64,000 bases of DNA. It comes from Undaria pinnatifida. Its lineage: Eukaryota > Sar > Phaeophyceae > Laminariales > Alariaceae. Positions within the stretch are counted from its first letter, which is position 1; the number at the start of each line of letters is the position of its first letter. The stretch spans positions 12,898,011-12,962,010 of the forward strand of contig JABAKD010000007.1 in the NCBI GenBank assembly GCA_012845835.1. The letters run 5' to 3'. Below, one piece after another: positions 1 through 37,180 of this stretch. Below the pieces are notes generated by a model. It worked only from the letters and a program-made list of their open reading frames with translations. It made no database searches and was not told the origin of the DNA. The translations under genes and the position numbers were made by a program.

Positions 1-500
1 AGCCCTCGCTCCTGGGGTGGTTTTGACGAATCCGCCTCTTGACGGATCGCGACCCACATCCGTCTGAGCGTTCAATTGTTCCACAAAAAAGAACCGACGT
101 GCTCTCTCGCGGTGTGGCCATGCATGGTCCCCCCGCCGGTCACGCAGCACGCTGTCTTGCTGGGCCGCGACAGCTGGATGTGCTTCAACACCTGTTCGTA
201 CCGCGCCCTGCCGCCTCGTCCGCTCGATACTCGAGTTTGGGCGAGCTGACGTTCTCCCACCACGCCGCAACAGGTGTAGCGGCTAATGCCGTCAACCCCG
301 CAGCTTCGAAGAGTGCTTTCCACCTTCGCTATGATGGCACTACAGGTGTCACCTTGTCGGACGATCCCCAATTGCTCGCGGTCAACTTGGTGCGCAGTAA
401 CGGCGCCCTTGCGCTCACAGGACACTACTTTGTCGGCATACTGCCGCAGTCGGGCATTTTTTCGGGGCAAAAACGTTTTGTGGCTTCAGGGCGAAGGCGC
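1..500 (+). mobile_element. Element 1: protease C-terminal region and linker to RT
   Basis: The translation around 140-200 resembles the retropepsin C-terminal stretch LLGRESW seen in the second Ty3/gypsy copy at about 31,530. The stretch at 300-470 matches the linker between protease and RT there. The aspartate active site would lie upstream of the window. Assignment is by similarity to the second copy and by position. Confidence 0.6.
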
Positions 501-839
501 TTCCCTTAAAAGGTGTCGCGGAACTCGATCCAGGCGACCTTGTCGGGGTCGCCGACGCCCCACTTCTGCGCGTCCCGCTGGGTGCCTTGCAACACCCCAC
601 CCACGCTGCGGGGCCCCACCCTGGCCAGACTTTGGACAATCAGGTCTCTGCGGTCGCGCGCTCGCCTGACACGGAGGGCATAGCTCCCGCCGCGACCGCC
701 GCCCTCGCCGGTGGTAATGGAACGTTTGAACCCAGCCGAGCGTTCTGCGTTTCTATGCGTATGGGCCCGACACCCACCGCACCTGCGGCAGATCGCGTTT
801 GGCATACACGGCCCTGGTTGGGACCCCCCGGCCATCGAG

Positions 840-1680
840 CAACTGGATGATATGATCTGCGACGTTCCTGACGTGTTCTCCACCTCGAAGACGGATTTTG
901 GGTCCTGCTCCCTGATGACCTTCGAAATCTCGGTCCCGGAGGGCAGCGCTCCGATCACGTCACGGCCCAATCGCATAAACCATAAACCCTATAGTGGACA
1001 AAGAAGTGGACGCGACCCTTAACCAGTACCTCGCGGCTGGGCTGATACAGCACCCGACTCCACCTTACGCGAGCCCGCTGGTGGTCATCAAGACGAAATC
1101 TGCCGGTGTGAGGATCACGGTGAACTGCAAGAAGCTTAACCAAATAAGCAAGCTCCGCCAACTGCCGATCTCCCGCGTGGACCAGGTCCCGGACTCCGCA
1201 GGCTCAGGTCGGCTGTTTTTCTTGTTTGAGTTGGTTTCCTCGTGCCACCCGATAACGGCACACAATGACACAGTTCCTCTTACAGCGTTCCGCACACCCA
1301 CAAGCCCATGTGAGTGGCTCGTTATGCCTCAGGGCCGCATCGCCTCGCCTGCATAGTTCGTCAAGGTCATTTATTAGGTCATCAAGGACTTGAAACAGGT
1401 GGAAGCTTACCTCGACGGTTCCATTCCGACCCGGTAGCGCATGTTCGGACTATTCGCTCCCTCTTCGAACGCCTTCGAAAGCACAGCCTTAAGCTTCCCC
1501 CCTCAAAGGCGCGATTGGGTGCCACCGATGCGAACTTTCTGGGCCACTCCATTTGTCCAGCAAACCTACGCCCAAACGCGGAAAAGGTGTCGGCATTGAC
1601 CAATAGGCCAATGCCCACAGACGTTAAGCAGGTGCGCGCACTCGTGGTTGGTGTCAACTATTACCGCAAGCCTTAGCCCG
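840..1680 (+). mobile_element. Element 1: reverse transcriptase region
   Basis: The N-terminal part carries DVFSTSKTDFGSCSL, the usual run-in to a Ty3 RT, which the second copy matches closely. Fingers and palm follow (VRITVNCKKLNQ, then LTAFRTP and WLVMPQG). The thumb region reads LGHSICPANLRPNAEKV, the gypsy LGHxI motif. This enzyme class copies element RNA into DNA inside virus-like particles. The copy is broken. Confidence 0.88.
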
Positions 1681-1689
1681 ACTTATCGA

Positions 1690-2230
1690 AGAAGGTTAGT
1701 CCAATTAACGCGCTCCTTCGGAGAGGATTAAGTTTGCCTTCTCGCCTGCCATGGAGATGTTGGTGCGATAAATCTTGGCGGAGCTCAAGACCCCGCCGGG
1801 GCTTGTTTTCCCAGATTGGGACGCCGTCGCCGAAAGCACACGCCCATTTCACGTGTATTGCGACGCCTGCGTCGACGGGTTCGCAGCCGCTCTCGAACAG
1901 GAGCAGGCGGGCGACTCCGTAAACCCCATCGCGTACATCAGCCGAGCTACGCTCGACTTGGAAAGGAATTGATCTCCTCTCGATTTGGAAGCTGGCAGCA
2001 TCGTCTGGGCTCTCAAACACCTCCGCGGCTACCTTTGGGGCTCCAAGTTCCCTATATTCTCATACCACAAGGCTCTGGAAAACATAGGCAAATTGGGGAA
2101 TCACAACGCCCGAGTCCAAAGATGGCTCGAGTTCCTCATCGCATTCGATTACACCCTCCAGTACCGAAAAGGAAGCGCGAACGGCAACGCCGACTTCCTG
2201 TCTCGCTTGCCGGATCCTGCCATTGAACAC
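1690..2230 (+). mobile_element. Element 1: RNase H region
   Basis: The segment FHVYCDACVDGFAAALEQ is the RNase H core that follows RT in Ty3/gypsy pol. It is followed by LEAGSIVWALKHLRGYL and by the terminal motif YRKGSANGNADFLSRLP, the classic GxxNxxADxLSR end of gypsy RNase H. The order and spacing match the second copy at 33,200-33,640. Confidence 0.88.
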
Positions 2231-3336
2231 GACCGCAATGGTTCGACGAGTCTCACCCCTGTTGAGGATGGCGGCATATACCTCACAAGGGCTTGCGGGT
2301 TGCACACTCCTTCCTTTAGAGGGCTAATGCCCCGCACCGAAAATGTTTCCTTGGGTGGGCTCCCTCTTACCCTTGCCGACATGTGCGATTTTTGCACACA
2401 CGGGTCACGTATGAGGCTTGACGACTTTCCTACTCCTTCCAGGATATTCGCCGCTCGTGTTTCTGCATCCGCCGCCACCGTCTATTTCTCTCCCGCCCGC
2501 GGGGGGACCTCGCGTTGAACCGACTACAATATCGTCTCGGTTTTGGCTGTACCCACCGCGGCCAGCGAGGACTCCGCAGAAGACCCGGCTGCCGCGACGT
2601 CATTCGCCCAACCTACGCCTTCCCGGAGCTCGGAGCAAGAGACTGACTCGGTTGAGCCCATGGGCCCGAATGCGTCCGTCTCTATCTCGCCTGGCTCTCC
2701 GGCGCCCCAGACGACGACGCCAATTTCAGATTGCATCTTCACGCGGACGCGCCGGCGTTGAGCAACAGCAGCTGGTAAGGCACCCCCTACTGTCGAATAT
2801 GGCTTTGGACCCGGCGGGGCCCCTCGGTCATCTTCCAGACGAGTTACCACTTCTTCGCGAGCCCGACGGCCGCGGCCGGCTCCGCCCTCCGCCGTGACCC
2901 CTACTCTTGCCGACCCGCCGGTCCGCACGGTGCCACTTCCGTCCGACCATGACCACGCATATACTATGGGAACGTTTCTACTACGGCGTGCACCTTCTCC
3001 TGGTGACACGCCGACTGCACCTACAAGGTCGGAAGACCTCGACGACTCTGCGGAATTACGGTTCGCTGACTCTGTCGCGCGTTATTCGCATGCCGAGTGG
3101 AAGCGATAGCAGCACGCTGAGCCGACGTGCCACGCCACGATACGTTACATCTCTATCGGCCGGCCGTTGGCCCTGCCGCCCGACCTTTTGGCGGGCTACC
3201 CCTCGCACAAGCGTTCCTCCCTCTCTGGCATCCAGGAGCTGGCGGGCAAGGGCCGAGCACATACGACCGATGACGACATCGTCTTACTCGTCCGTAACCG
3301 ACACGGCCGCTGACAAGGTCTGACAAACCCAACTCT
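2231..3336 (+). mobile_element. Element 1: low-complexity linker between RNase H and integrase
   Basis: This GC-rich stretch gives proline-, serine- and arginine-rich translations with no domain I recognise. It sits where Ty3/gypsy elements have the linker before the integrase zinc-binding domain. No separate gene is supported here. Confidence 0.6.
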
Positions 3337-4680
3337 GTGGATCGAGCTGCTTGCTTGCTAAACGACGAGCCTGTTTGCATCTACGTTCCCCTGCCCATGC
3401 GCCCTTGGACCATGCAAACTTGTCACTCCACGACCTCTTGTGACCTTGGCAACACGCGCACGTTGTGCATGCTGGAGCGGTTTAATTGGTGTATTGGCGT
3501 GAAGGTGTGCACCCAGTGGTGGCTTCGCTACTGCTTGAAGTACCAAGCACTGAAACCCCCGCGGCTGACTGTCCACTGGCCTATCATCGCAATGCCTCTA
3601 CCGAAAGGTCCAGGTGTCGTCGTCAGTGTTGACTACTTCGGCCCCCTGCCGGACACACCATGACGCAACACCTATATCCTGCTGTTCACCGATCGCCTCA
3701 GTCGTCTTGCCAACATGTTCCCCATCACCGCTGCTGAGGTCACCGCGGAGGTTACAACCAATATCCTCGTGAACCAATACATCTTCTTGTGGGGGTGCCC
3801 GCGCACCATGTACTCTCAGACAACGGCCTGGAACTCTGCTCCAAGCTTTCACAAGCTGTATACAAGCTGTTGGGTGTGCACAAGCTTGCTATAAGCTCCT
3901 ATCACCCCAACTGTAACTGGGGCGTTTAGCGGGTGAACCACACCATGTTCCAAATGCTGGCTATGGTCGTCAACGAGCAACAAGACGATTTGGACTTGAA
4001 TCTTCCCCGCGTCGAACTCGCTTGCAACAATTCCGTCAGCGCGGCGACGGGTCTGGCGCCCCACGAGGTTCACATGGCAAAACCCCCACGGCTCCCCCTG
4101 ACGGTTTTCGACTGCACTGGCTTCGTGGGACACCAGAGCCTGGCGCGTGATCACCTGGTCTATTGCGAATTGGCCACCGACCGGCAAAAGCACGCGAAAG
4201 ACTTTGTCCTCGCACAGTACGCCCTCACCGTTTCTCGTCTTTACTGCAGAAACTCCGCCCTCGCCGACGAGCTGCGTCCAGCACCTAACTTCGCTACGGG
4301 TGGTTGGGCATGGGTGTACAACTCTGCCTCCATCATCCGCCAGGGTGTGAAGGCGAACACGCACGCCAAGGTACTCAAAGCCAAACTCGTGCTTAACTGG
4401 ACGAGCCCGTACAAGATTCTGGCAGTCGATCTCTGCTCCGCCCCTGAGACCTCGGACGGTTCGCCGCTCGGGAACAACTTCCTGTATGTGGATCTCCCTT
4501 CCGACCTGCCCGGTTCCGACGCTCGTCGGCGTGTGGCCGTCGAGCGCTTCAAACCCTGCGCCAATCCCCACGACAGCGGGGACATGCCCAAATACCTACC
4601 GGCGGGACCGACGCGGTACGTGCTGAACAATTTTTCCAAGACGTCTCCGCCGTACCACGTCACCCAAGACGACGGTTCGA
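3337..4680 (+). mobile_element. Element 1: integrase (zinc-binding, catalytic core, C-terminal region)
   Basis: The 3,337-3,560 part has the histidine/cysteine spacing of an HHCC zinc-binding region (MQTCHSTTSC, then CLKYQ). The core begins with GVVVSVDYFGPLP, the DYFGP start of retroviral-type integrase cores. It continues to the segment NHTMFQMLAMVV and ATGLAPHEVHM, typical of the core end in gypsy integrases. From about 4,150 comes the basic C-terminal region, including VLNWTSPYKILAV and RRRVAVERFKPC. Integrases insert the cDNA into chromosomes. Broken copy. Confidence 0.88.
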
Positions 4681-4683
4681 CCC

Positions 4684-4850
4684 CCCTCCAACGGCTGGAG
4701 GTGGAGCAGATCACCGGCCATCAGTCGGTACGGAGGTGAGGTGGCGTCATCACGGTGCTATACAAGACGTATCCGGCGGGACTCTCCGAACCTTCCCCGG
4801 AGCGGGAAATGGACCTCCACCTCTCCCGCTCCCACACCTTGCGTTATTGG
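4684..4850 (+). mobile_element. Element 1: chromodomain-like segment
   Basis: Downstream of the integrase lies LQRLEVEQITGHQSV, followed by a stretch with VITVLYKTYPAGLSEPS and EREMDL. This is the pattern of chromoviral chromodomains: VEKIxxHR, then a V-Y-W-like strand and a final PSWEPE-type helix. Such domains steer integration towards particular chromatin. The call is by motif only. Confidence 0.65.
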
Positions 4851-5013
4851 GCAGCAACCCCGGACCAGCACCGCCAAACCACCCGTCTCTACCGCCGGAT
4901 GAGGATGGGGACGGCACAGTGCGAGCTCTCCGGCAACAACGGGGAACGGTTCCTAGCGCCGAGCTACGCTCGTGTTCCCCGCGCCGATTGGCTCCGTCGC
5001 TACCACGACACGG

Positions 5014-5250
5014 TACTTCCTAAGGGAGACCACGTTTGGTACAAGGGAGACGATGGGTTATGATGGCGTGGAAAAATCAACGCGAGCACTACCGAGGACA
5101 GCATATACCTGGTTCGCGTTCGGGACGACCCGGGAACGGTTAAACTTCATCTTCCCCCGGCGCGCTACACGACTTCGACGGGGCTGTACGAGGCTCTTGG
5201 TGCCTGCGCGTTCACATCGCCAGCGCGTTTCCTCCGGGGATCCAACGTAA
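5014..5250 (+). mobile_element. Element 1: Tudor/SH3-barrel-like C-terminal module
   Basis: The module opens with GDHVWYKGDDGLWW and GKI, an aromatic-rich beta start like that of Tudor/PWWP-type barrels. It ends with VRVRDDPGTVKLHLPPARYTT. The second copy has the same module (VWYK, DGLWW, then RFLDDPGPIKI and ARYTT). Conservation between two diverged families suggests it is a genuine part of the polyprotein. The function, perhaps reading chromatin, is inferred. Confidence 0.6.
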
Positions 5251-6143
5251 CGTAGATGAAGCTCGAGGCGTGACCGTGTCGAGTTCACTTTCAAGCCGCC
5301 ACCGCTTCTTGGTAGTTCTCCATTTTGTTTGGGTTATGAAGTTTGAGTCTTGGTATTTGGGTTGTTTGTGGTGTTCCGAGAGTCTTGGTCTAGTTTTGGG
5401 GTGGTTCTTTCCATTTTTGGTTTTAGTCTTGCCGAACTCCCCGCGCAATTTCGGGCCAGGGTTCGGGTAAAACGCCGCTATCTGAGGCGCAGGACTGTCG
5501 CTGTTTAGTCGTTGTTCGATTTCGCCCTGCCGACGCCCTCCTCAGCCCAAAGCCGAGGGGTGACCAGGATACCCTGTTAGCGCATAACGTTGTACAGGGC
5601 TATGTACGGGCCTTTATATTATGTGTGTTTTGTATTTGCTCTACCTTGTTTTTTCGGCTAAACGCCCCAGGGCTGTAATTACGGCTACCTTACATCCCGG
5701 GTATTTGTCGTTTCTTCGTCGAACCCCCCGCCATACCGATGGCCCGCGGGAGGTTTTTTGCATGACTTCTACCTGGTGTTAGCGCCTGTTCCCCTCCATA
5801 TCGACGAGGGCGTGTCTCGCCATAGTACCTTTTGTTTGGTTGGTTTGCCGCAAAGCCTTTTCTACCCCCCTGCCACACCGGTGCTATGCGGCAGGTTCTA
5901 AAGCCTTTTCTGCCCGCCCCCGCCACACCGGCGGTATGCGGCAGGTTTTTGATGGGTGACGTATGCCTTGTTTGTTTGGTCTTCGTCTCCTTCAAGGTCT
6001 TTCCTTCGCGTGTTCCTGGTTCCACAGCCAGACCGTTAGAGGTGTGGGTGTGAGTTTTGAAGTGCCACATCTTCGACTCATCGTCTAGTTCGTAGAATCG
6101 TAGGTTCCCCGAATCTCCGATATTTCTGCATATTATCGGCTCA
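5251..6143 (+). mobile_element. Element 1: 3' noncoding region
   Basis: About 0.9 kb of T-rich sequence lies between the end of the coding module and the polypurine tract. It holds no ORF of interest. It contains the tandem GCCACACCGG units described separately. Confidence 0.7.
5855..5955 (+). repeat. Tandem ~50-bp units with a GC-rich dyad, in the 3' region of element 1
   Basis: Two adjacent units share AAAGCCTTTTCT, then GCCACACCGG and TATGCGGCAGGTT. A more decayed third unit lies near 5,728-5,758. Within each unit GCCACACCGG and the GCGGCAGG arm have dyad character and could form short hairpins in RNA. Confidence 0.75.
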
Positions 6144-12189: not shown

Positions 12190-14590
12190 AGGGGGCGTTG
12201 TTAGATGGGGGTGTTGTTGGGGAGGGGAGGTGGGGGGAGGGGAAGGTAGGAAGGGGGGGAGGTGGGTGTGGGGGGAGGTGGGGGGGAGGGGAGGTGGGGG
12301 GGAGGGGAGGTGGGGGGGGGGGGGGAGGTGGGTACATGGGGAGGTGGGGGGTGCGGGTGGTGGGAGGGGAGGAAGTTGGGGGGGGGGGAGGTCGGACGGG
12401 GGGGGTAGGCAGGAAGGGGGGGAGGAGGGGGGGCGGAGGAGGTGGCGGGGGGGGGGGTTGTAGAGGGGGAGATTGGGGGGGGGGATTGAGGGAGGGGAAG
12501 AGGTATGGAGGGTGGGAGGTTGAGGGGGGGGGAGGTAGAGGCGGGTGACAAAGGGGGGAGGAGGTGGGGGGGGGGGGGGGTGGGGGGGGGGGGAAGTGGG
12601 GAGCGGGGGAGGTGGCGGGGCGGGAAGGTGGGGGCAGGGGGGAGTTGTTGAGGAGGGGAGGTGGGGGGTGGGGGGGTGGATGGGGGGGAGGAGTGCGGGG
12701 TGGGAGGTGGGGGGGGCGTACGCGAGGGGAGGGGGGAAGTTGGGGCGGGGAGAGGTGGAGTGGGGCGGGAGGTGTGGAGTGGGGGAGGTGGCGGGGGGGG
12801 GGGGGAGTGGTGGGGCGGGAGGTGGGGGGGCGTGGGAGGTGTGGGGAGGGGGGGAGATGGGGGGGAGGAGACGTGGGGGGGGTGAAAGTAGGAAGGGGGG
12901 GAGGTGGGTGAGGGGGGAGGTTGGGGGGGGGGGGGAGGTGGTGGAGAGCGGAGGTGGGAACTGGGGGAGGTCGGGGGGGGGGGGGGGGAGGGGTGGGGGC
13001 GGGGGAGGGGTGGGGGGGGGGAGGGGGGGGGGGGGGGGGGAGGGGGGGGGGGGGGGGAGGGGGGGCGGGGGGGGAAGGGGGGGCGGGGGGGGGAGGGGGG
13101 GGGGGGGGAGGTCTGGGGTGTGAGAGGTGGGGGGGGGGGGATGCGGGGGGGGCAGGAAGTGGGGGCGGGGGGAAGTGGGGTTGGGGGGGAGGTGTGTAGG
13201 GAGGAGGTGGGGGGGGGGGGGAGTGGAGGGGCGGGAGGTTGGGGGAGTGGGAGGTGTGGGGAAGGGGGGAGGGGGGGGGGGAGGTGAGGTGGGGGCGGGG
13301 GGAAGTAGGAAGAGGGGGAGGTGGGTGGGGGGCGAGTTGGATGGGGAGGAGGTGGGTGGGGGGGGTGGTGGGTGGGGGTGGGAGGTTGGGGAGGGGGGAG
13401 GTTGGAAGACGGAGAGGTGGGAGGGTGGAGGTGGGGAGGGGGGGGGGGTATGGGGGGGCAGGTGGGGGGGGTGGAGGTGGGGGGGGGGAGGTGTGGAGGG
13501 GGGGAGGTAGGGGGTTGGGGGGGGAGGTGGGGGGTGAGGGAGGTGGGTGGGGGGGGAGGTGGGTGGGGGGGGGGGTGGGCGGGCGGGGAGGTGGGTGAGG
13601 GGGGAGGTGGGTGGAGGTCGGAGGTCGGGGGGGGGGGGAGGTGGGGTGGGGGAGGTGGGCGGGGGGGGAAGTGGAGGGGGGGGAGGTGGGGAGGGGGGTG
13701 TGGAGGGGGCGGAGGATGGGGGGGGGGGGGTGTGGAGGGGGGGAGGTGTGGGGGGGGGGGGAGGTAGAGGAGGGAGGGAAGTGGAGGGGCGGGAGATGGG
13801 GCGGTGTTTGGTATGGGAAGGGGCCGAGGTGTGTGAGGGTGAAGGTAGGAAGGGGGGGAGGTGGGTGGGGGGGGAGGTGGGGGGGGGGAAGAGGTGACAG
13901 GGGGGGGGCGGGGGAGCGGGAGGTGTCGAAGGGGGGAGATGTCGGGGTGGGGAGTTGGGTCGGGGTGAGGTGAGGGCGGGGAGAGGTGGCGGGAGAGGGA
14001 GGTGGGGAGGAGGGGAGGTGGGGGGGGGGGAGGTGGCGGGAGGGGTAGGTAGGTGGGGGGGGAGGTTGGTGGGGTGGAAGGTGAGAAGGGGCGGAGTTGG
14101 GGGGAAGGGGAGGTGCGGGGGGGGTAAGTCGGGCGGGAGGGAGGTGGGAACGGGGGGGGGGAGGTGGGGGGAGAGGCGATAGGGGGGGAGGGGGGGGAGG
14201 GGGGAGGGGGCAGGCGGGGAGGGGGCTAGGGGGTAGGGGAGGAGGTGGGAGGGGGAGGAGGTGACGGTGGCGGGGCGAGGGGGAAGGGGAGAGGGGAGGA
14301 GCAAGGAGGGGGGAGGGGGGGAGGAGGGGAGGGGGGAGGAGGGGAGGGAGGAAGGGGGGTGGGGGGAGGGGGGGAGGGGGGAGGTGGGAGAGGGGAGGGG
14401 GGGGGGGGGGCAGTGGGGGGGGTGGGAGGGGTGGAAGGGGGATATGGGGAGGGTGGGCGGGCGGAGGGAAGGAAGGTGGCAAGGGCGGATGGTTGAGGGG
14501 GGGAGGCGGGAGGGGTGGAAGGGGGAGGGGGGCAGGGGGGAGGGGGGGAGGTGGGGGTGGAGGGGAGGGAGGGGGGAGGAAGGAGGGGTG
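12190..14590 (+). repeat. 2.4-kb G-rich low-complexity tract (GGGGGAGGTGGG-type)
   Basis: The + strand is made almost only of G with scattered A and T and very little C. It is built from variants of GGGGGAGGTGGGGGG, with G-runs of more than 10. The pattern is irregular, not a clean tandem array. It is continuous with the third G-tract of element B copy 3. The strong strand asymmetry predicts many G-quadruplexes. The very long proline-rich open frames opposite it are artefacts of C-rich codons. Confidence 0.9.
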
Positions 14591-23296: not shown

Positions 23297-23880
23297 TGTA
23301 ACAGAGTGTCAGTATAGTTGGCAATAATTTCGGTAAGATAGCCCGCAGAGTCATGGTCTATTGGCTACAAGAAGATTCTCTTGATCGGAATATTCTGAGT
23401 GGTGAAAACAACCCGTAGAATCTAGCTAGCTTATACCACAAGGGCGTTCTCGGTATTGGAACGTTCCTCCTCTGGACAAGATAGATAGGTTTAAGCGCCT
23501 TAAGCGCTCATAGGAATATAGATCATCTAGGAAAATGTTCCTCGTTACGTTCCATAGGTTGAAGTCCAGAAGAGAGCACAGCCGCAATGCTGGGGGGAAG
23601 CGAACTCTGTGAGCCTCACCCCACGTTCATGCTCTCACTCCTCCTTTCCCGTCTCCTCAAGCTTCTCATAGCTCAACGCCAGCAATCAGAAATCTACAAA
23701 GGAGGACCGGTGCTGTCTCCAAGTGAAGCTGATACCCCTGCGGCCCTTCCCTCACACCCTTCCAAAACCACGACTCTTCACAATAGATATTTCCTTGAAT
23801 CGACGACGTGTGAGCTCCAAGCTTGGAACGGCAGCCCCGCCTCATCTCGGTTTCTTGTTATCATATATTGTGAACCATCA
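23297..23880 (+). repeat. 5' LTR of element 2
   Basis: Starts TGTAACAGAG and ends near TGTGAACCATCA. It aligns with 36,604-37,180 over blocks such as AGCCCGCAGAG, CTATTGGCTACAAGAAGAT, CCCGTAGAATCTAG and ATAGATCATCTAGGA. The last ~100 bp align poorly, so the right end is approximate. Confidence 0.8.
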
Positions 23881-26796: not shown

Positions 26797-28610
26797 ACAT
26801 GGCTGAGAGATACGTTTCCGACATATGTTGGCCCACACCCCTGATTCCCCTAGCTTCTGCGAGGACGGTACACCCCCAGAACCGCCCGCGCAAACATGGA
26901 CGATATCCCGAACGTGGAGTCCATTCTGGGCAATTTGACGCTACACGCGGCCACTCCGGGCCTCCTTCCCCTCGGAGCAGGCATCTCCGGTGCCGGGCGG
27001 GAGCCCACTGTCAAACCAGAAACCATTTGGTAGGAATCTGCAAGCCCTATCTCGGACCCGGGGAAGACCCAGGGCCACCGCGCAGTCTTCCGCGAACGCC
27101 GCGCGGCCCTGAAAGCCCACCACGAACAGCTGGTTCTCCAGCTCCAGAAGAGCGCCGAGCTCTTGCGTAGGCTTCCCCCCTCCCCAACCCTTTACACCAA
27201 CCCATTCTTGCCGTCACATACGGCTACAGTTGCGACCGCGGCCACTCCGGCCCAACGGCAGCCGTTCGTCCCCCCCACGCAACCCTCAGTGCCTGTGACC
27301 TTGCGGGCACAGACGCTGCAGGTAGCGCCAACCCATGCGTCCGCCGTGACGCCTGGGGCGACTACTTTCCAGCTGCCGCCGCCGGCCCAGCCGGTTACCA
27401 CAACGTACCAAGTGCCACCGCCTGCCCAGCCCTTGCCCCCCCCTACCCCCTTGGCATCCACACGACCGACGGTTCTACCGCGCGAGGCTATTGATTGGGA
27501 TTTCTGCGGCGCCAGACTCCGCTGCATTAAGAGTACACGCGGAGCAGCTTTTTATGATGCCTCATTGCGGACACACCGCCTGTGGGGTTTGTTCGCCCCC
27601 GATAGCGACCCATCGGTCGCCTTCGTCCAGGCCCGTGCCTCCACCACAAGCGATTCCGAAAAGCTCATTAGGGCCACCAACACCGTGGTACTCGCCCTTT
27701 GTCACCCTCACAACAACGCCGGCCGCGGCTATGTGTGGAATCCGACAGAGTCCCGTCTCAACGCCACTGCACACCCCAGCCCCCTCCAAAACGATGGCCG
27801 CGCCCACGGCGGTGACGCTGGTCCATCCCACCGCAGACGCGCTCATGCTGGCGACGATCCCCTCCCGTCCACCAGGACAACGACAGCACGATCGGGTCGT
27901 ATAAACAGGCGACGAGCATCACGCCGTTACGCGCTAATACGACGTGGTGGGCATGCGGAAGTTCACACCACTCGTACGCCTACCGTTCCCGACCAACAGC
28001 GACGCCGCCGTCTACCTGGGCATATTCCCCGCCAGCGTCAAAGTGGCGATGAGGGAGATCCTCACGATCTGCAAAGATTCAGGCAAAGAGTCATTCGACA
28101 CACCCCCCCTGGGTGAAGGGATGGCACATCACCCTCCACAAACGTTTCCACAAGGTTTTCCGGTATTCGCAGGTGATGGCGTCGCCCCTAACCCGCCTCG
28201 TTGATGATTTTTCGCCCAAGTTGTCCGGGAACTCGGCATCGACGGAACCGGACCGTCGACGTTCAAAAAGCTGCTGCGGCTCCTAACAAACCACTTCGAC
28301 AACGGCGACCAGAGATGCACCTTCCAACAGCTGCACTTTTTTGACCTACCGAGCTCAACAGACTTCTCCACGTTCCTGCGAGCGTTCAAGGAGCGCGTCT
28401 CGCTCGCACAGGGCACATAAAACAGTTTCTAGCCCAGTGACGCTATGGTCGTTGAGATCGTACGCGGGATCACACGCAGTCAGTACCCATCGCTGATGCC
28501 AATTCTCTACCCTGGGCGCCTCATGACGGTCTCGCAGCCGTTCGCCACGGTTGCGGACATGTGGTCGGCTTTCGAGGAACTGGCAACGAACTAAACGCCG
28601 ACTATCAACA
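26797..28610 (+). mobile_element. Element 2: gag region
   Basis: The region begins near ATGGCTGAGAGATACG at about 26,800. An N-terminal part is followed by a basic, coil-like stretch near 27,090-27,175, and a proline/threonine-rich linker at 27,180-27,480. A capsid-like stretch carries FTPLVRLPFPTNSDAAVYLG, TICKDSGKESF and FDLPSSTDFSTFLRAFKERV, the last being a typical gag capsid ending. Broken copy. Confidence 0.7.
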
Positions 28611-28921
28611 GCCAAGGTTTCCATGTGACTTCTTCCGGCGGGCATGTCACGTACTCTTCCTCGCCACCATCCCCTGTACGAGACCCCAGCATGCCTGGTT
28701 CCGGCATTCACGTAATGGGATCCTCGTCTAACCCGTTGATCATGAACGTTGCCGAGGCCGACCGCGAGCCATTCTGCGAGGACGAGTCCGACTGGCCTCT
28801 CCGACACTACGAGGAGGTGTACATGGTGACGACAACGTTTAGTATATGGGACCCTCCGCTGCTCACCCCGCTCCTCACGAGCTCGGCCCGCGTTCAAGCC
28901 CTATGTGCTCACAGCGGACAC

Positions 28922-28963
28922 TGTCTTAGCTGTAACGGTACGGATCACAGCATGAAGACCTGC
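28922..28963 (+). mobile_element. Element 2: CCHC zinc knuckle
   Basis: The translation CLSCNGTDHSMKTC has the exact CX2CX4HX4C spacing of a retroviral nucleocapsid zinc knuckle. It marks the end of gag and binds element RNA in this family. Confidence 0.9.
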
Positions 28964-29018
28964 CGTCAGGACTTCAACATATCCGGCATTCTCAACCCTG
29001 CGCTTGGCCAGCTGAACA

Positions 29019-29320
29019 ATGGTGGCCACGCCTACCGTCAATGGCAACAACGGATGCGCTCTTACCGCCGGGGCCAGTACAAGCACAACGGTTACCGAAA
29101 CCCCCAACCGCCACGCCCACCGTAACGACAACCGTCGGGGCACCTACCACAACAACAACCAGGGCGCCAACAACAACAACCGCCACAACTACGACAACGT
29201 CAACCAACACCGGGGCAACAACGGACGCTCCAACAACGGACGCCACAACAACGGACGCCACAACAACGGACGTCACAACAGCGGCCGCTCCTACGACAAC
29301 GGCAACCGATAGGCGCAAGA
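29019..29320 (+). repeat. Asn/Thr-rich low-complexity stretch with 15-bp units
   Basis: The unit AACAACGGACGCCAC recurs about four times at 29,218-29,275, inside a longer AAC/ACA-rich stretch. Depending on frame it encodes NNGRH or TTDAT repeats. Nearly the whole stretch is open in more than one frame because of its composition. Confidence 0.85.
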
Positions 29321-30438
29321 GCAGCAGTTCCAACAACGACGCGCCACGGCCGCGACGCAGTCGACAACTATGACGGTACACGATCCGGCGACCAATACCC
29401 CCGCAGCCGCCCCTCCGCCGAACATGCGGATCGGCAACAACAACGCCACCAACCCTAACCAATGGCAACCGGGCACCGTTCGCACCAACTGACGAGCCGG
29501 TGGTGGAGTAACTGCAGCATCTCCGCCAACAGTACTTGCTGCGAACACCCGATCTCAAGACGCCCGAGTACACCACGTGCACCACGCCTCCCTGCCCTCT
29601 GCCCCTCTACGCCCCCCCCCCAGCCCCAGCCTAATCTCCAACCACTTGCTCAAGCACTGATCTTCTTGCTCCAGTGATTGCCTTGAGGTGTGGGTGGGAG
29701 GAGGCCAAGGCGTCGAGCTCTACTGGGATGCTCCACTCGCCGTCGTCCCGCGATGTGCAACGCTACCTGCCGACTATCGCCGAGACTCCAGACATTGCTT
29801 ACCTGGGCGAAGTCTCGACGATTGCGACTACCAGCGGTTCCGGTTCACGCGAACCTGCTGTTTTGCCCACCGGGCCACCGCCCCCTGAGCCCGCCTCGAC
29901 CCCAGATTGGCGGCTGCTCACCCGCTCGTCACAGGACGTGCGATTTTTCAGTGACAACGTTGGGCCCGCGAACAACGGGTCCCCACTCGATGCCACGGTG
30001 TTGACAGCACCACTGCCCCTGAGCTCGAATGACAGTCCCGTCCTCTACAGGCGGAAGACTCGCGATCACAATCAACCAGGACATGCTCTGAGTACTCTGC
30101 CCCGTCATCCTCGCCGGCTTACCGCATTGCGTAGACTCGGGCCACATGATCTGCATGCCCTAGCGAGTACAGCCCAGCTCTCCAAACGCCTGAGGACAGG
30201 ACCCCCAAGGGTATCCCCGCCCAGTGTACGCGCCACCGCGTGGACCCTCCCGGTACCTCGGCTTTGACGAACAATTTTCCCTCGCGAACTCAGGCGTTCA
30301 AGTCAGCGCCACCCGATCGGACCTGGCTCCACCCCCGACAACGCCATACGGCGATATCACCAACAATTGCCGACCCCCACCCCCGCCACCCCCATCAGAC
30401 GACTCGCCCTCGCAAGAACACGACACCGCGGACCCCCT

Positions 30439-30862
30439 GGATTTTTCCATTTCTTCCGGAACTCCTCGTCCGTCTTTTCACAGTGGTACCGGTGCGATAT
30501 CGAGGACGAGGGCGTCACGTACAACTGCGCCGAACAGATGGTGATGGCGCAGAAGGCTGCGCTCTTTGGTGACACGGCGACAGAGCTTCGCATCTGAACC
30601 ACCGCTGACCCTGCCAAATAATAATTTGTTTGACGCACCGTGTCCGGCTGCGACCAGAAGTGTTGGGAGGGACACCGCTACGACATCGTCCTCAACACCA
30701 ACTTCTTCAAGTTCAGCCAGAACCCGCACCTACAACGAGAGTTCGTGGCAACTGGCGAGAAGCACATCGCTGAGGCCAGACAGTACGACCTCTATGCATC
30801 GGCTACAGGGCCGGCCACCCGTTATCCTGCGAAAGGACGCGTTGGCGCGTTCGGAACCCGCT
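30439..30862 (+). mobile_element. Element 2: NADAR-like (YbiA/DUF1768) module
   Basis: The segment begins GFFHFFRN and FSQWYRCD, continues with GVTYNCAEQMVMAQKAALFG, and ends with CWEGHRYDIVLNTNFFKFSQ, LQREFVATGEKHIAEA and YDLYA. These are the ordered signatures of NADAR family N-glycosidases: FSNWYP, YxxAEQYMMxxKAxLFGD, W..R..I...GN..KFxQN, LL.TG...L.EASP.D. Family members cleave N-glycosidic bonds of ADP-ribose-type or riboflavin-pathway substrates. Some reverse guanine ADP-ribosylation in DNA. Here the module lies between gag and protease of a Ty3/gypsy element. What it does there is unknown. The copy is broken. Confidence 0.8.
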
Positions 30863-31199
30863 AGGCTGGGTACGTATGGACGTCCGCGAAGGCCTTTGCT
30901 CGAGCCTCCACGCCACAAGCTCCCCCCTTCTCTGCTCTCCTGAGCAAACACCCACTCTCACCGACTGCAACAGGGTCTTCCCTACCGCCGATGGCATCTA
31001 CAAGGCAAGCCCCTCCACCCCTCAGCAAACGCCGGGTATCCCGCTCGGACTTCTTCTGCCACACTCCACCCCGGACGTCTTGCCCAGCAGCCACTTCGCT
31101 CAAGCCTCCACCGTCGACGCCGCAGCCAACATATTCTCCGCTACCACCGCGCCGACGATACGAAAACATGGACCATGCCTTACAAGCGGCATTTAAACT

Positions 31200-31580
31200 G
31201 TCGACGACGCGTCGTTCACGACCGACGTACTAGTCCACAGCGGTCCTACCGCCACCAAATGCTGCAAACTCGTGGCGTTGCTCGATACAGGCTCCCCTCA
31301 GTCGTTTATCACCGCCGCCGTGGAACAACTGAAGGCCTCCCGGTCAGCAACGGATGAGTGCGAGCACCATAATTCACCTCGTTCATGGGGAGGTTTCGGA
31401 ACTTCGACTCCCCTCTCCACCTCCGTTTCCATCCGCTTAAGCATCCGGTTTAAGCACCACCAAATTCCCACCACCGCATTGACAGTATGGGCTTGCGTTG
31501 TTTCTGCAGGAACTATGCAGCACCCCATCCTCTTGGGGCGAGAGAGCTGGATGCGCTTCGAGCGACGCTCGTATACCACG
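31200..31580 (+). mobile_element. Element 2: aspartic protease (retropepsin-like)
   Basis: VALLDTGSPQSFIT carries the DTG active-site motif, with the D codon at 31,284. HPILLGRESWMRF, about 80 residues on, is the ILGRD-like C-terminal strand of retropepsins. The enzyme would process the polyprotein. Confidence 0.85.
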
Positions 31581-31957
31581 CTCCCACGACAGCCCCAGCT
31601 GCCACACTACCCCCCCCAACCGACCCGTGGTGAACTTTCTCTGCACCACCACGACCCCAACGGGACCTCAGCCTTCATTATCGACGACCGATACGCCCAC
31701 GACGTCTACCGCCTCCGGTTTGCCGGCACCAAAGTTATTTCGCTGTTTCCTCCTCACCGAAGCACGTCAAGGTCAACTTCGTGCGCCTGTCAGGCGCCCC
31801 GGTGTTTACCGCGAATTACATGGTCAACATGCTCTCCCGCGAGGACCTCCTCTCTGACACGGTAATTTTCGTCTCCGACGGACACTAGACTATCTCATGG
31901 TCGGGTTCAACCGATCTCGAACTGGGCGACCTCCTCAGAACCTCCCTCTCCCCGCTG

Positions 31958-33460
31958 GTGCAAGTACCACTAGCCACCCTTGGGCACCCTTCCTTGGACC
32001 CCCCTTCTCCTCCACCTACGCCATGCGTACATGCCCTACACGACAACATCCCTGTGGCCAGCGATAACCCCCCACGAGCCGATCCCCACGTCCCACTGAC
32101 AGCTCCGTGCCCACAACTCCTTGCACGCCTCGACGCCGATCAACTACCTAGCTTCCTCAACCTCTGGGGCTGTCTGCCGCCGCATCTGCGCGACGTTATC
32201 TTCGACCTCCACGGTTCCGGATGGTTCCCATCGGTGATCGACCGCCTAGGAGATGTCCTCTGCGAGTTTCCAGACGTATTTTCCACTTCCAAGACCGACT
32301 TCAGCTCGTGCTCATTGACGCCGTTCAAGATAACCGTACCTCCGCACAGCGAACCAGATACCTTCCGCCGGTACAGGATCAACCACAATACCAGAAAATC
32401 CCACACCGTCCTCGACCAGTACCTGGCCGCCACCTTGATCCAGCATTCGACCTCACTTTATTCCAGCCTTATGGTCGCCATCCCGAAGAAGGACGGCGGT
32501 ATCCGCATCACCATCAACTACAAGAAGCTGAACGCCATCAGCTCCCTCGGACAGCTTCCTATCCCCCGCGTCGACGAGGTCCTTGATTCTTTAGGAAAAG
32601 GGCGCATTTTCTCCCTCTTCGACATGGTCTCCTCGTGCCACCAAATCGCCATCGACAAGGATACCATCCCTTTGACGGCGTTCTGCACACCAGACCGGCT
32701 CTTCGAGTGGGTTGTGAAGCCGCAAGGCAGCAGCGCCTCCCCCGGTTGGTTCGTTAAGGTCATTAACGAGGTCATCAAAGGCTTGGAACACGTCGCCGCG
32801 GACCTCGACGACATCGTCGTCTTCGACCCCGACCCCAACGACCATGTCGTCAACATCCGAGCCCTTTTTGGTCACCTCCGTAAGCACCACCTCAAACTTT
32901 CTCCCTCCAAGGCCAAAATTGGCGCCACTACCGCCGACTTCCTGGGGCACACCATCTCCGCTGGCGGCTACAGCCCCAACTCCGACACGTTCGGCACCCT
33001 CACCAGAATCCCCATGCCCACAGACAAGAAACAGGAGCGATCATTTCCTCGGAGGCATCAACTACTACGGCAAGCTCCTACCAGACCGAGACGTCTTCGC
33101 CCCATCAACGCTCTACTCAAGCCTGGCGCCACTTTCGACTTCACTCCCGCCATGGAAGCCACTATCAGCGCGATCCTCCACGACTTTACCGGGCCACCGA
33201 TCCTCGTCTACCCCGACTGGGACGCCGTCGCCGACAACTTTCCCCCTTTCCGCCTCTACTGCGACGCTAGCCTCGACGGCATCGGAGCGATTATCGAGCA
33301 AGAACATCCCGACAGCTCCATCCGCCCCATACTCTGCATCAGCCGCGCCACCCTGGACCCCGAACGTTCATGGACACCCCTCAATCTCGAGGCCGGCAGC
33401 ATCGTCTGGGCGATCAAGCGACTACGCGGGCATCTGTGGTCCACCCGTTTCCTGATATAA
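31958..33460 (+). mobile_element. Element 2: reverse transcriptase and RNase H (500-codon open stretch)
   Basis: Approximate residues: 100-140, DVFSTSKTDFSSCSLTPFKI run-in; 170-190, VAIPKKDGGIRITINYKKLN fingers; 195-250, palm with FSLFDMVSSCHQIAI and LTAFCTP; 287-295, LDDIVVFD catalytic hairpin; 320-335, FLGHTISAGGYSPNSD thumb; 420-440, FRLYCDASLDGIGAIIEQ RNase H core; 475-500, LEAGSIVWAIKRLRGHLW. It is unusually long and open for this element. It synthesises cDNA in the family. Confidence 0.92.
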
Positions 33461-34194: not shown

Positions 34195-34585
34195 TTCCCG
34201 GATCGTGTTGTCGACGTCAAGGACGACCCCCACCTCCTCGCCCGCGTTGAGCGCTACACCTACAGAAGCTGGACGCACGAACAACGCGCAGAGACCGTGC
34301 GCTACACCGCGGGAACCCCCGCGACCTTTGGCTTCGCAGTTTCAACACCTCCACCCTCCCCTCCGGGGCACACGTCTGGTACAAGGCATGTGACGGCCTC
34401 TGGTGGCTAGACGAAATCGCTTCCCGCGCGCCACCGGACGTCTCTTCGCGGACCCCCCCGGACCCTTCGCCGGATAGCTCCTACAATATCAGGTTCCTGG
34501 ACGACCCCGGCCCGATCAAGATCGGCGTCCAGTCAGCTCGCTACACTACCGCCCGGAACGCCGTCTCCGGATCGTGGTGCCTTTA
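34195..34585 (+). mobile_element. Element 2: Tudor-like C-terminal module
   Basis: The upstream part carries VDVKDDPHLLARVERYTYR. The barrel-like part has HVWYK, DGLWW, then YNIRFLDDPGPIKIG and ARYTT. It matches 5,014-5,250 of element 1 and is GC-rich like the rest of the coding part. Confidence 0.6.
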
Positions 34586-34589
34586 ACGC

Positions 34590-36590
34590 CATGGGCATGG
34601 GAGCCTATCCCGTGGGGTGCTACAGAACTCTGATGCTTCCCACCGGTGCCCCTACCGTTCCAACTCCCCCCCCTGGTAAGTGTCGGGTGTTTATTTGTTT
34701 TAGGTGATTTTACGGTAGTTTTGGCATGAATTCTTCACGGTCAGCCTTTAATCTACAGCATTTTCTAGGGTAGTACCTCGTGGTTAGTCCTTTCACCTAC
34801 AGTAGCTTCAGAAATGATTCTTCATAGTCAGCCTTCAACCTGCAGTAACTTTAGTGGTATCTTATCGTGGTCATCCTTCCGACCTGGAGTGGGTCTTCGT
34901 CATGTCTTCTCATGGTTAGCCTCCAACCGTCATCAGGTTTAAAAGTTTGGTTTTAACATAATGGCGTCAATCGTGAAACCTCCGCTTTCGGCTTTGTTTT
35001 CATGCCAGTGTCTGTCTCTTTTTCTCGCAACCGTTGATTTCGCCTGCCTCACTCCGTGACGGCTAACAACTCGTGGTGGTAGAGCGGTATTTATGATTTT
35101 CTGCATTATGCAGCATTTTTGAGAACGATCGTCTGACGACACCGTTTCTCCTTTGCCCCACTCTGTGATGGCTATCGAACCAGGACCGTCTCGTACCTAG
35201 GACGTATTTGGGTATTCCTCTCCATCTCTTTGTTCTGTTCTGTTTGCTTTCTCTGTACCACCTCGGCCTCCGCTAGCCTCGTTTCGTTCAGGCTTCCGAA
35301 CCGTGGTAACTTTTGTTTTTCATTTGTGTTTGTACTTCACGATTCCTCCCCCGACACCCGGTGATTTTTCGCCTGGGTGATCGACCTCTGTGTTGTATCC
35401 TGACCGTCGCCGGTGCTGCTTTGCCCTGACGACATCGCCGAGCTCTAGGATTGATCGTTTTTTCTCCATACTTTGCCAAGTAGGGTCCCAGTAGCCTTGC
35501 AGACTCGCGAGACGACCAAATTACCGGCAGTCCTTTTTTCATGCTTTGTTTTTGAATTGTCTTCGTGTTTGAGTCCCGGTAGCTTTTGCCTGCCCACAAG
35601 GCCGCCGGATTGTCTGTCATCATACTCCTGCCACGGTTGACCCCCTCGAACTGTGCTCAGGTTCCCGTGAACTTCCCAATCACGGCAGTAGTTACGCTCT
35701 CCCCGTTTATTTGTCTTCTCGTTTCTGTTTGTCTTTTTTTGGGTGTACATCTTTCGTTGCCATTCTACGGTGTATGACGCGTCATTCGGCCCCCTGCAGG
35801 CGTTATTTTGCCATGCTACCTCCGTCCCTCAGCGCTGCTGACATTTTTCTGTGTTGGACGCATTAGGTCGATCCACTCGCGTACCTTTTTTGCTACCCTG
35901 ATTTTCTGTTCGTATTGGTTGAGTTACCTTGCTACGTTTGCCGGTATTGTTCCCAGCGCAAACAGGCCTCCCAGGGCGCCACGTTGTTCGCTCGATTAAG
36001 TGGCGCTAGCAGCCCCTTAGCTTCAGCGAGCCTTACGGTAACCAGGCCGCGCTCGTTTTGTCTTACGTGCGACTTTCCATCTTCTTCGGGCCTTGGCCAC
36101 ACGGCTGCGCGTGATGCCTCCCGGACATATATATTTTCGAATTTGGGTGATGTTCCCTTTGCAAGCTTTCGAGTGACCCACCCTGTACGGCGAACGACTC
36201 CCCGTTCGCCCCACCCTGGGTCCCACATATATCGCTCCGGTAACGTGTTTATGACATTCCCTTTTGTCTTCGCTTCGCTTTTTGCATTTCTTAGCTACCT
36301 TCACTTAGTCTTCAGGTTCCCTTTTTCGTTTTCAGCTTCGGCTGTTCTACTTAGGTTGCCCCATTGTGGGTTTTCTGTCTTGATCCATCTTGTTGTGGCC
36401 TTTCTTTCCGCGATTTGCTCTCTTGAATGATCCTCTACGTGGCGTTTAGGCCTTGTTGCGAGGTGTGGGGGTGTCTATCGCCTCATGTCTTTGTTTCGAA
36501 TAGCCGGGTCTTCGACCCCCGTTCCCGGTCTTTTAGGATAAACTTTGTCGTCACCCTTCGACAGTCTTGATGTCTTCATATACGACTATT
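34590..36590 (+). mobile_element. Element 2: 3' noncoding region
   Basis: About 2 kb of T/C-rich sequence without a convincing gene. From 34,720 to 34,945, four degenerate ~60-bp units recur around CATGGTTAGCCTCCAACC-like and TTCTTCAC/ATGGTCAGCC-like motifs. Such long noncoding tails are unusual for small gypsy elements but known in giant ones. Confidence 0.65.
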
Positions 36591-36603: not shown

Positions 36604-37180
36604 TGTAATAGAGGTTCAGTGTAGCAGGCAATAGGTTCGGTAAGGTAGCCCGCAGAGGTGTGGCCTATTGGCTACAAGAAGATTATTTAAAACAGAGTAT
36701 TCTGAGTGGAGAAGATAACCCGTAGAATCTAGTTAGCTTATACCACAAGAGCGTTCTCGGTATTGGCACGTTCCTCCTCTGGGCAAGATAGATAAATTTA
36801 AGCGACTTAAAAGCGTCCATAGGAATATAGATCATCTAGGAGAACGTTCCTTGTACGTTTCATAGGTTAACGTCCAAAAGAGAGCACAGCAGCAATGCTG
36901 GGGGAACGCGAAGTCTGTGAGCCTCACCCCACCCCTATGCTCTCACTCCTCCTTTCTTGTCCTCTCGAGCTTCTCATAGCTCGAGGCCAATGATAGGAAA
37001 TCTGCAAAGAAGAACCGGTGCTGTCTCCAACCGAACCTGATACGCTGCGTCTGCGTCGCTTCGCTTACACCTTCCCGGCACCACGACTCTTCATATAACC
37101 ACTGCGGAGGCCACCGAGTTGACTGGTTGCTTGGGGCTTGGAGTACTTGGAACTTGGAACGGAATCATATTAGAATCTCT
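36604..37180 (+). repeat. 3' LTR of element 2
   Basis: Starts TGTAATAGAG and follows the 5' LTR through GTAGCCCGCAGAG, TATTGGCTACAAGAAGATT, TTATACCACAAGAGCGTTCT and ACCACGACTCTTCA. The right end is approximate. Confidence 0.8.

Follow-up and report, generated by a model that had tools for sequence, protein, structure and literature searches.

A NADAR domain in a decayed retrotransposon of Undaria pinnatifida

The analysed window is a stretch of 64,000 nucleotides from the brown alga Undaria pinnatifida (assembly GCA_012845835.1, contig JABAKD010000007.1, positions 12,898,011 to 12,962,010 of the forward strand), and all positions given below are those of the window. Between 23297 and 37095 it holds an old, broken long terminal repeat (LTR) retrotransposon of the Ty3/gypsy type, read on the forward strand, in which a NADAR domain lies between the gag region with its zinc knuckle and the LLDTGS motif of the protease, the placement proposed by a first-pass annotation made from the letters alone. 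A YbiA-type NADAR belongs to the usual make-up of the polyprotein, in this place between gag zinc knuckle and protease, both in the close family of this copy and in a wider lineage.

The signatures FSQWY, YNCAEQMVMAQKAALFG, KFSQN and FVATGEKHIAEA follow one another in that order and in one frame (30439-30861), as annotated. Each half of this frame scored above the PF08719 gathering score of 35.1 when searched alone (30439-30594, E = 1.1e-8, 35.9 bits; 30634-30861, E = 5.2e-10, 40.3 bits), while the first half inside the longer open reading frame (ORF) 30268-30594 reached 33.1 bits, slightly below it. Alignment with P0002 and P0011 (protein sequences used here carry P numbers) by tblastn placed the first two thirds of the domain at 30445..30792, where four in-frame stops (codons 53, 61, 62, and 65) mean that the window copy cannot make the domain. 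The last third (IGYRAG...RMDVREGL) sits in a different frame, at 30798..30896, which implies a frameshift at around 30792-30798; it was aligned by tblastn to residues 188-224 of P0002 (62%, 30798-30908) and, searched alone (P0064), had no Pfam hit. The annotated extent of 30439..30862 does contain NADAR sequence and stops short of the end of the domain in the other frame; likewise, the annotation recognized a real domain and left out that the copy is broken. Among PDB chains, the Phytophthora NADAR 8bau was the sole phmmer match of query P0001 at E ≤ 0.001 (6.4e-11), and a profile of 30 relatives (A2) matched 8bau at 7.1e-38 and YbiA (2b3w) at 1.7e-18.

The other parts of the element all lie on the forward strand. 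The 5′ LTR (23297..23782, with TG...CA ends) and the 3′ LTR (36604..37095) were paired by blastn at 83.1% identity over 491 columns and lie 13.3 kb apart, the paired repeats of a Ty3/gypsy element; both begin with TGTAA, and TAAC stands directly before the first and directly after the second, tentatively a 4-bp target-site duplication. The gag region, split over several frames (27599..29221), was found by tblastn with residues 17-571 of P0254 (E 2e-46, 26.9%), with the low-complexity filter and composition correction switched off, and its zinc knuckle (CX2CX4HX4C) lies at 28922-28963. With these settings, the same query also gave many weak matches to a G-rich array at 12-14.6 kb, the best of which (2e-8) was far below the gag match. 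The aspartic protease region (31080..31745, LLDTGS at 31278-31295) matches residues 1-223 of P0071 at 80.7%, and the Ty3 peptidase model PF12384 gave E = 0.038 there, short of the cut-off. It is followed by the reverse transcriptase (RT) and RNase H at 31889..33457 (RVT_1 8.5e-21, RT_RNaseH_2 3e-16, RT_RNaseH 1.4e-14) and, at 34251..34640, by a C-terminal stretch aligned by tblastn to residues 641-750 of P0136 (41.5%, E 1e-22), which has no Pfam match and only resembles chromo/Tudor-like reader domains. The protease-RT-RNase H order is thus present in the window copy, and the relative P0186 shows RT-RNase H-rve in Ty3/gypsy order. No integrase was found in the NADAR-bearing copy by tblastn with the integrase parts of P0093, P0101, and P0171, whose only matches in the window fell at 3.4-4.1 kb, in a second gypsy copy.

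This second, related copy (1-5300, forward strand) comprises protease, RT, RNase H, integrase, and reader-like domain, split over frames, and is 71-81% identical to P0068 along the matched stretches; its 5′ part, where a NADAR would be sought, falls outside the window. The G-rich sequence is an imperfect tandem array of 2.4 kb (12219-14588). No tRNA and no Rfam match were found in the window, and the six ORFs scanned outside both gypsy copies had no Pfam match at E ≤ 0.1 or E ≤ 1.

Recurrence of the domain order

The search with P0001 yielded 62 proteins, and the close family consists of 11 of them (P0002-P0010, P0013, and P0028), 57-87% identical. The linker upstream of NADAR is common to the window copy and P0028 and the downstream linker to the window copy and P0006 and, by eye, P0009 and P0013; P0262 is a further protein with linker sequence in common. 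In the RT search, the 8000 candidates with the most words in common with the query were scored and 120 of the 207 matches listed; among these 120, all 18 matches with a named organism came from Ectocarpus sp. CCAP 1310/34 (44-59% identity), the closest match was P0065 (80%, on a short contig), and six carried NADAR (P0086, P0095, P0099, P0136, P0158, and P0171). By themselves, these matches point to a brown alga or another stramenopile, other than this Ectocarpus, as the probable host. In the Ectocarpus proteins the domain precedes the RT.

When the NADAR region of P0136 served as query in a third search, 114 long NADAR proteins were obtained from 307 candidates. By motif scan, a protease motif lay downstream of NADAR in 51 of the 114 and an RT motif in 18, with neither motif upstream in any protein; 61 had at least one of the two downstream and 53 had neither. 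The distance from the NADAR end (phmmer envelope) to the protease motif had a median of 123 amino acids (range 122-160), and 127 codons separate the NADAR end at 30896 from LLDTGS at 31278 in the window copy. Some relatives keep several domains in a single ORF, for instance gag-zinc knuckle-NADAR in P0254, NADAR-protease-RT-RNase H in P0255 (its protease recognized by motif, with a Pfam E of 0.17), and NADAR-RT-RNase H-integrase in P0186. The 53 proteins without either motif include truncated element ORFs as well as fusions of NADAR to PF03747, an ADP-ribosylglycohydrolase, or to PF10021 or PF01661, which we take to be PARG-like and macro domains, respectively.

The decay of the window copy might suggest that a NADAR gene, or a piece of one, had landed in this single copy by chance. 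The same order at a near-constant distance in 51 other proteins, together with flanking linkers common to P0028, P0006, and P0262, contradicts this and leaves it a negligible probability. The recurrence proposed as a check in the first-pass annotation was therefore found, in other copies and in Ectocarpus: the module is not confined to one copy, and its NADAR profile match is significant.

Two further proteins were noted in these searches. P0189 (Mercenaria mercenaria, 894 amino acids) has two NADAR domains and a long charged tail and could be related to the oyster long interspersed nuclear element (LINE) ORF1 proteins of PMC12477816. In P0292 (1164 amino acids), NADAR is followed by a YTDD stretch that looks RT-like by eye and is recognized by no Pfam model; it is perhaps another retroelement class carrying NADAR.

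Conservation, constraint, and predicted structure

Residues of the ADP-ribose pocket are numbered here after PMC11543638, and their mapping onto our alignment was made in the present analysis. We scored 93 element proteins, 73 of them assigned by looser protease, RT, or zinc-knuckle motifs, nine by linker, and 11 as family members. Seven pocket residues were kept in 94-98% of the scorable element rows (E43 83/85, K50 89/91, R79 88/91, W89 90/92, E125 85/88, D130 84/88, and W133 81/86), compared with a mean column conservation of 0.77; the Y84 position is F in 87 of 92 rows and the K75 position is ambiguous in the alignment. The window copy still has the equivalents of E43, K50, R79, W89, R93, E125, and D130, has lost the W133 position at the frame change, and has C at the Y84 position. 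Its E at position 125 is that of the YbiA subfamily, the other subfamilies named in PMC11543638 having D or H.

Among 35 proteins, the mean p-distance was 0.284 for NADAR, 0.290 for the protease, and 0.464 for the linker between them, a comparison made at the protein level rather than by nonsynonymous to synonymous rates and over pairs that are not independent. The linker distance exceeded that of NADAR in 571 of 595 pairs, and the 100 residues upstream diverged more than NADAR in 272 of 276 (0.353 vs. 0.224). After thinning to 17 rows, the values were 0.341 for NADAR, 0.360 for the protease, 0.536 for the linker, and 0.360 upstream (28 pairs only). Judged by these distances, NADAR is constrained at the protein level much as the protease is. 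The otherwise fast-changing linker contains a short recurring motif, approximately DT[IV]FE[VI]DPxT (e.g., in P0199 and P0198), possibly a protease site or docking motif.

The AlphaFold2 model of the relative P0002, computed with A2, had a mean pLDDT (predicted local distance difference test) of 80.5, with all ten-residue blocks of residues 71-220 at ≥ 90. Foldseek matched it to 8bau (E 2.5e-9, template modelling score 0.71 by target) and 2b3w (E 2.4e-7), the sole matches with E ≤ 0.001 among the 22 PDB matches listed, the next one having E 2.0. A YbiA-like fold is accordingly predicted for P0002, the modelled chain, rather than for the window copy.

Origin of the domain

In a tree of 112 rows (30 chosen element rows, the window included, and 82 others), the free topology contained two separate element clades, one of six rows with the window copy (support 97/93) and one of 29 rows, the Ectocarpus clade (100/94, five of the rows untagged), so that the window NADAR branches apart from the copies of Ectocarpus CCAP 1310/34. 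These unjoined clades would suit two acquisitions of NADAR, once in the group of the window copy and once in that of Ectocarpus. Against this, a tree with the elements joined in one clade (35 vs. 77 rows, labels assigned after the tree was seen) had a log-likelihood higher by 8.27 and was not rejected by the approximately unbiased (AU) test (p-AU 0.623), and NADAR and protease distances were correlated (r = 0.97 over 36 rows, a value reached by 0 of 2000 permutations; r = 0.47 over seven thinned rows, reached by 30 of 5000). We therefore regard a double uptake as improbable; since the joined clade is not rejected, a single capture is allowed, rather than established, by these data.

The search for a donor covered viral and prokaryotic contigs. 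In viral contigs, query P0001 found three stretches, none of them confirmed, and alignment A1 found 99 confirmed stretches, the best of which was 44% identical to P0002; in contigs of prokaryote genomes, A1 gave at least 550 confirmed stretches (best 49%), and the nearest cellular relatives with an organism assigned are bacterial. None of the 160 loci taken (the best 80 of each set) had a tblastn match at E ≤ 1e-3 to the element protease or RT, and, at 29-49% identity to P0002, none points to a viral or cellular donor. Ectocarpus proteins with a NADAR domain have been described (Esi0017_0056 and two others; PMC7922944), and proteins of this type, known here by description, are a possible host source or relative.

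Possible function of an element-borne NADAR

Our preferred reading, to which we give a probability of roughly 0.45, is that the NADAR carried by these elements acts as an ADP-ribosyl-guanine hydrolase that clears ADP-ribose from element RNA or complementary DNA (cDNA). Where relatives are still intact, the protease would release the domain or remain joined to it, and the domain would be packed in the particle alongside the RNA and the RT. Once there, it would probably strip the RNA or cDNA of the element of ADP-ribose on guanine (or of an equivalent N-linked ADP-ribose) and so keep the template readable. This activity is favoured because NADARs hold ADP-ribose via the pocket residues (PMC11543638) and because guanosine-ADP-ribose was hydrolysed in vitro by each of the four NADAR types, from E. 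coli or phage, that were assayed (PMC11125620). The anti-ADP-ribosylation role raised in the first-pass annotation draws its evidence from the conservation of the active site.

Several observations weigh against it. YbiA and phage NADARs failed to rescue cells from DarT1 (PMC11125620), so that activity in vitro does not by itself define the biological role. The window copy itself is dead. Among the elements, R93 is not kept (33 R and 55 C in 92 scorable rows), and 85 comparison rows, five of which are unlabelled elements according to the tree, keep the same seven pocket residues about equally, so that the pocket counts show only that element NADARs resemble ordinary ones. In addition, similarity to NADAR was the basis of retrieval, a choice that favours proteins whose NADAR is conserved.

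The domain could instead be kept as a part that binds nucleic acid, ADP-ribose, or NAD and serves in packaging or processing RNA. Processing of the RNA intermediate was proposed in PMC12477816, and a site after the gag zinc knuckle would suit RNA handling. PMC11543638 links E43, K50, and E125 to catalysis, and their retention in 97-98% of the scorable element rows speaks against this role, with the reservation that ADP-ribose binding alone would preserve most of them too; we consider the purely binding role unlikely. A benefit of a metabolic kind, unrelated to ADP-ribosylation of nucleic acids, would follow if NADAR acted on a small-molecule pool as an N-glycosidase, like YbiA, reportedly, in riboflavin biosynthesis. 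The link of YbiA to riboflavin is stated in PMC7922944, the elements have the YbiA-type glutamate, and the structural comparison gave YbiA as one of its two matches; a metabolic enzyme would, however, sit oddly in a gag-pol polyprotein, and YbiA itself hydrolyses guanosine-ADP-ribose in vitro (PMC11125620). In our judgement this role is quite improbable.

Going beyond the preferred hydrolase reading, stramenopile gypsy particles might carry an active ADP-ribosyl-guanine hydrolase that counters ADP-ribosylation of the element's RNA or cDNA by the host. We hold this wider proposal to be doubtful; if true, it would imply an undiscovered eukaryotic defence against retroelements based on nucleic-acid ADP-ribosylation. 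With an ADP-ribose enzyme of catalytic appearance as a fixed part of a retrotransposon polyprotein, apparently constrained like the protease, there is a testable case that ADP-ribosylation of nucleic acids matters to eukaryotic retroelements.

Comparison with known elements and NADAR proteins

Retroelements bearing NADAR have already been published: a Gypsy lineage of Ectocarpus sp. 7 carries the domain (e.g., Gypsy-12_Ec32; PMC12477816), and the implication of the first-pass annotation, which knew of no characterized retroelement with such a module, is not supported. Beyond PMC12477816, no other paper pairing NADAR with a retroelement was found, by title or abstract opening, among the entries listed in the literature searches. 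What is added here is a branch distinct from the named copies of Ectocarpus, the continuous gag-NADAR ORF, the counts of domain order and pocket residues, and the comparison of divergence.

By the description given of that lineage, the window copy is an element of the same kind, and both have a C-terminal domain resembling chromatin readers; unlike the lineage, the window copy is broken and no integrase was detected in it, and in the free tree its NADAR groups with other relatives. The Tx1 LINEs of Crassostrea gigas (PMC12477816) are likewise retroelements with a YbiA-family NADAR, but they are non-LTR elements with the domain in ORF1. The NADAR of Phytophthora nicotianae (8bau) and E. coli YbiA (2b3w) have the predicted fold and the ADP-ribose pocket residues in common with the element NADARs, at 26% and 23% identity to P0002 in structural alignment, respectively, but each is a short chain with one domain (189 and 168 residues) rather than a retroelement polyprotein. 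Finally, the equivalents (E43 and K50) of E88 and K95 in the DarT1-linked NADAR antitoxins are kept in the element, whereas at the position of the element's YbiA-type E125 these antitoxins use an aspartate, D171 (PMC11543638).
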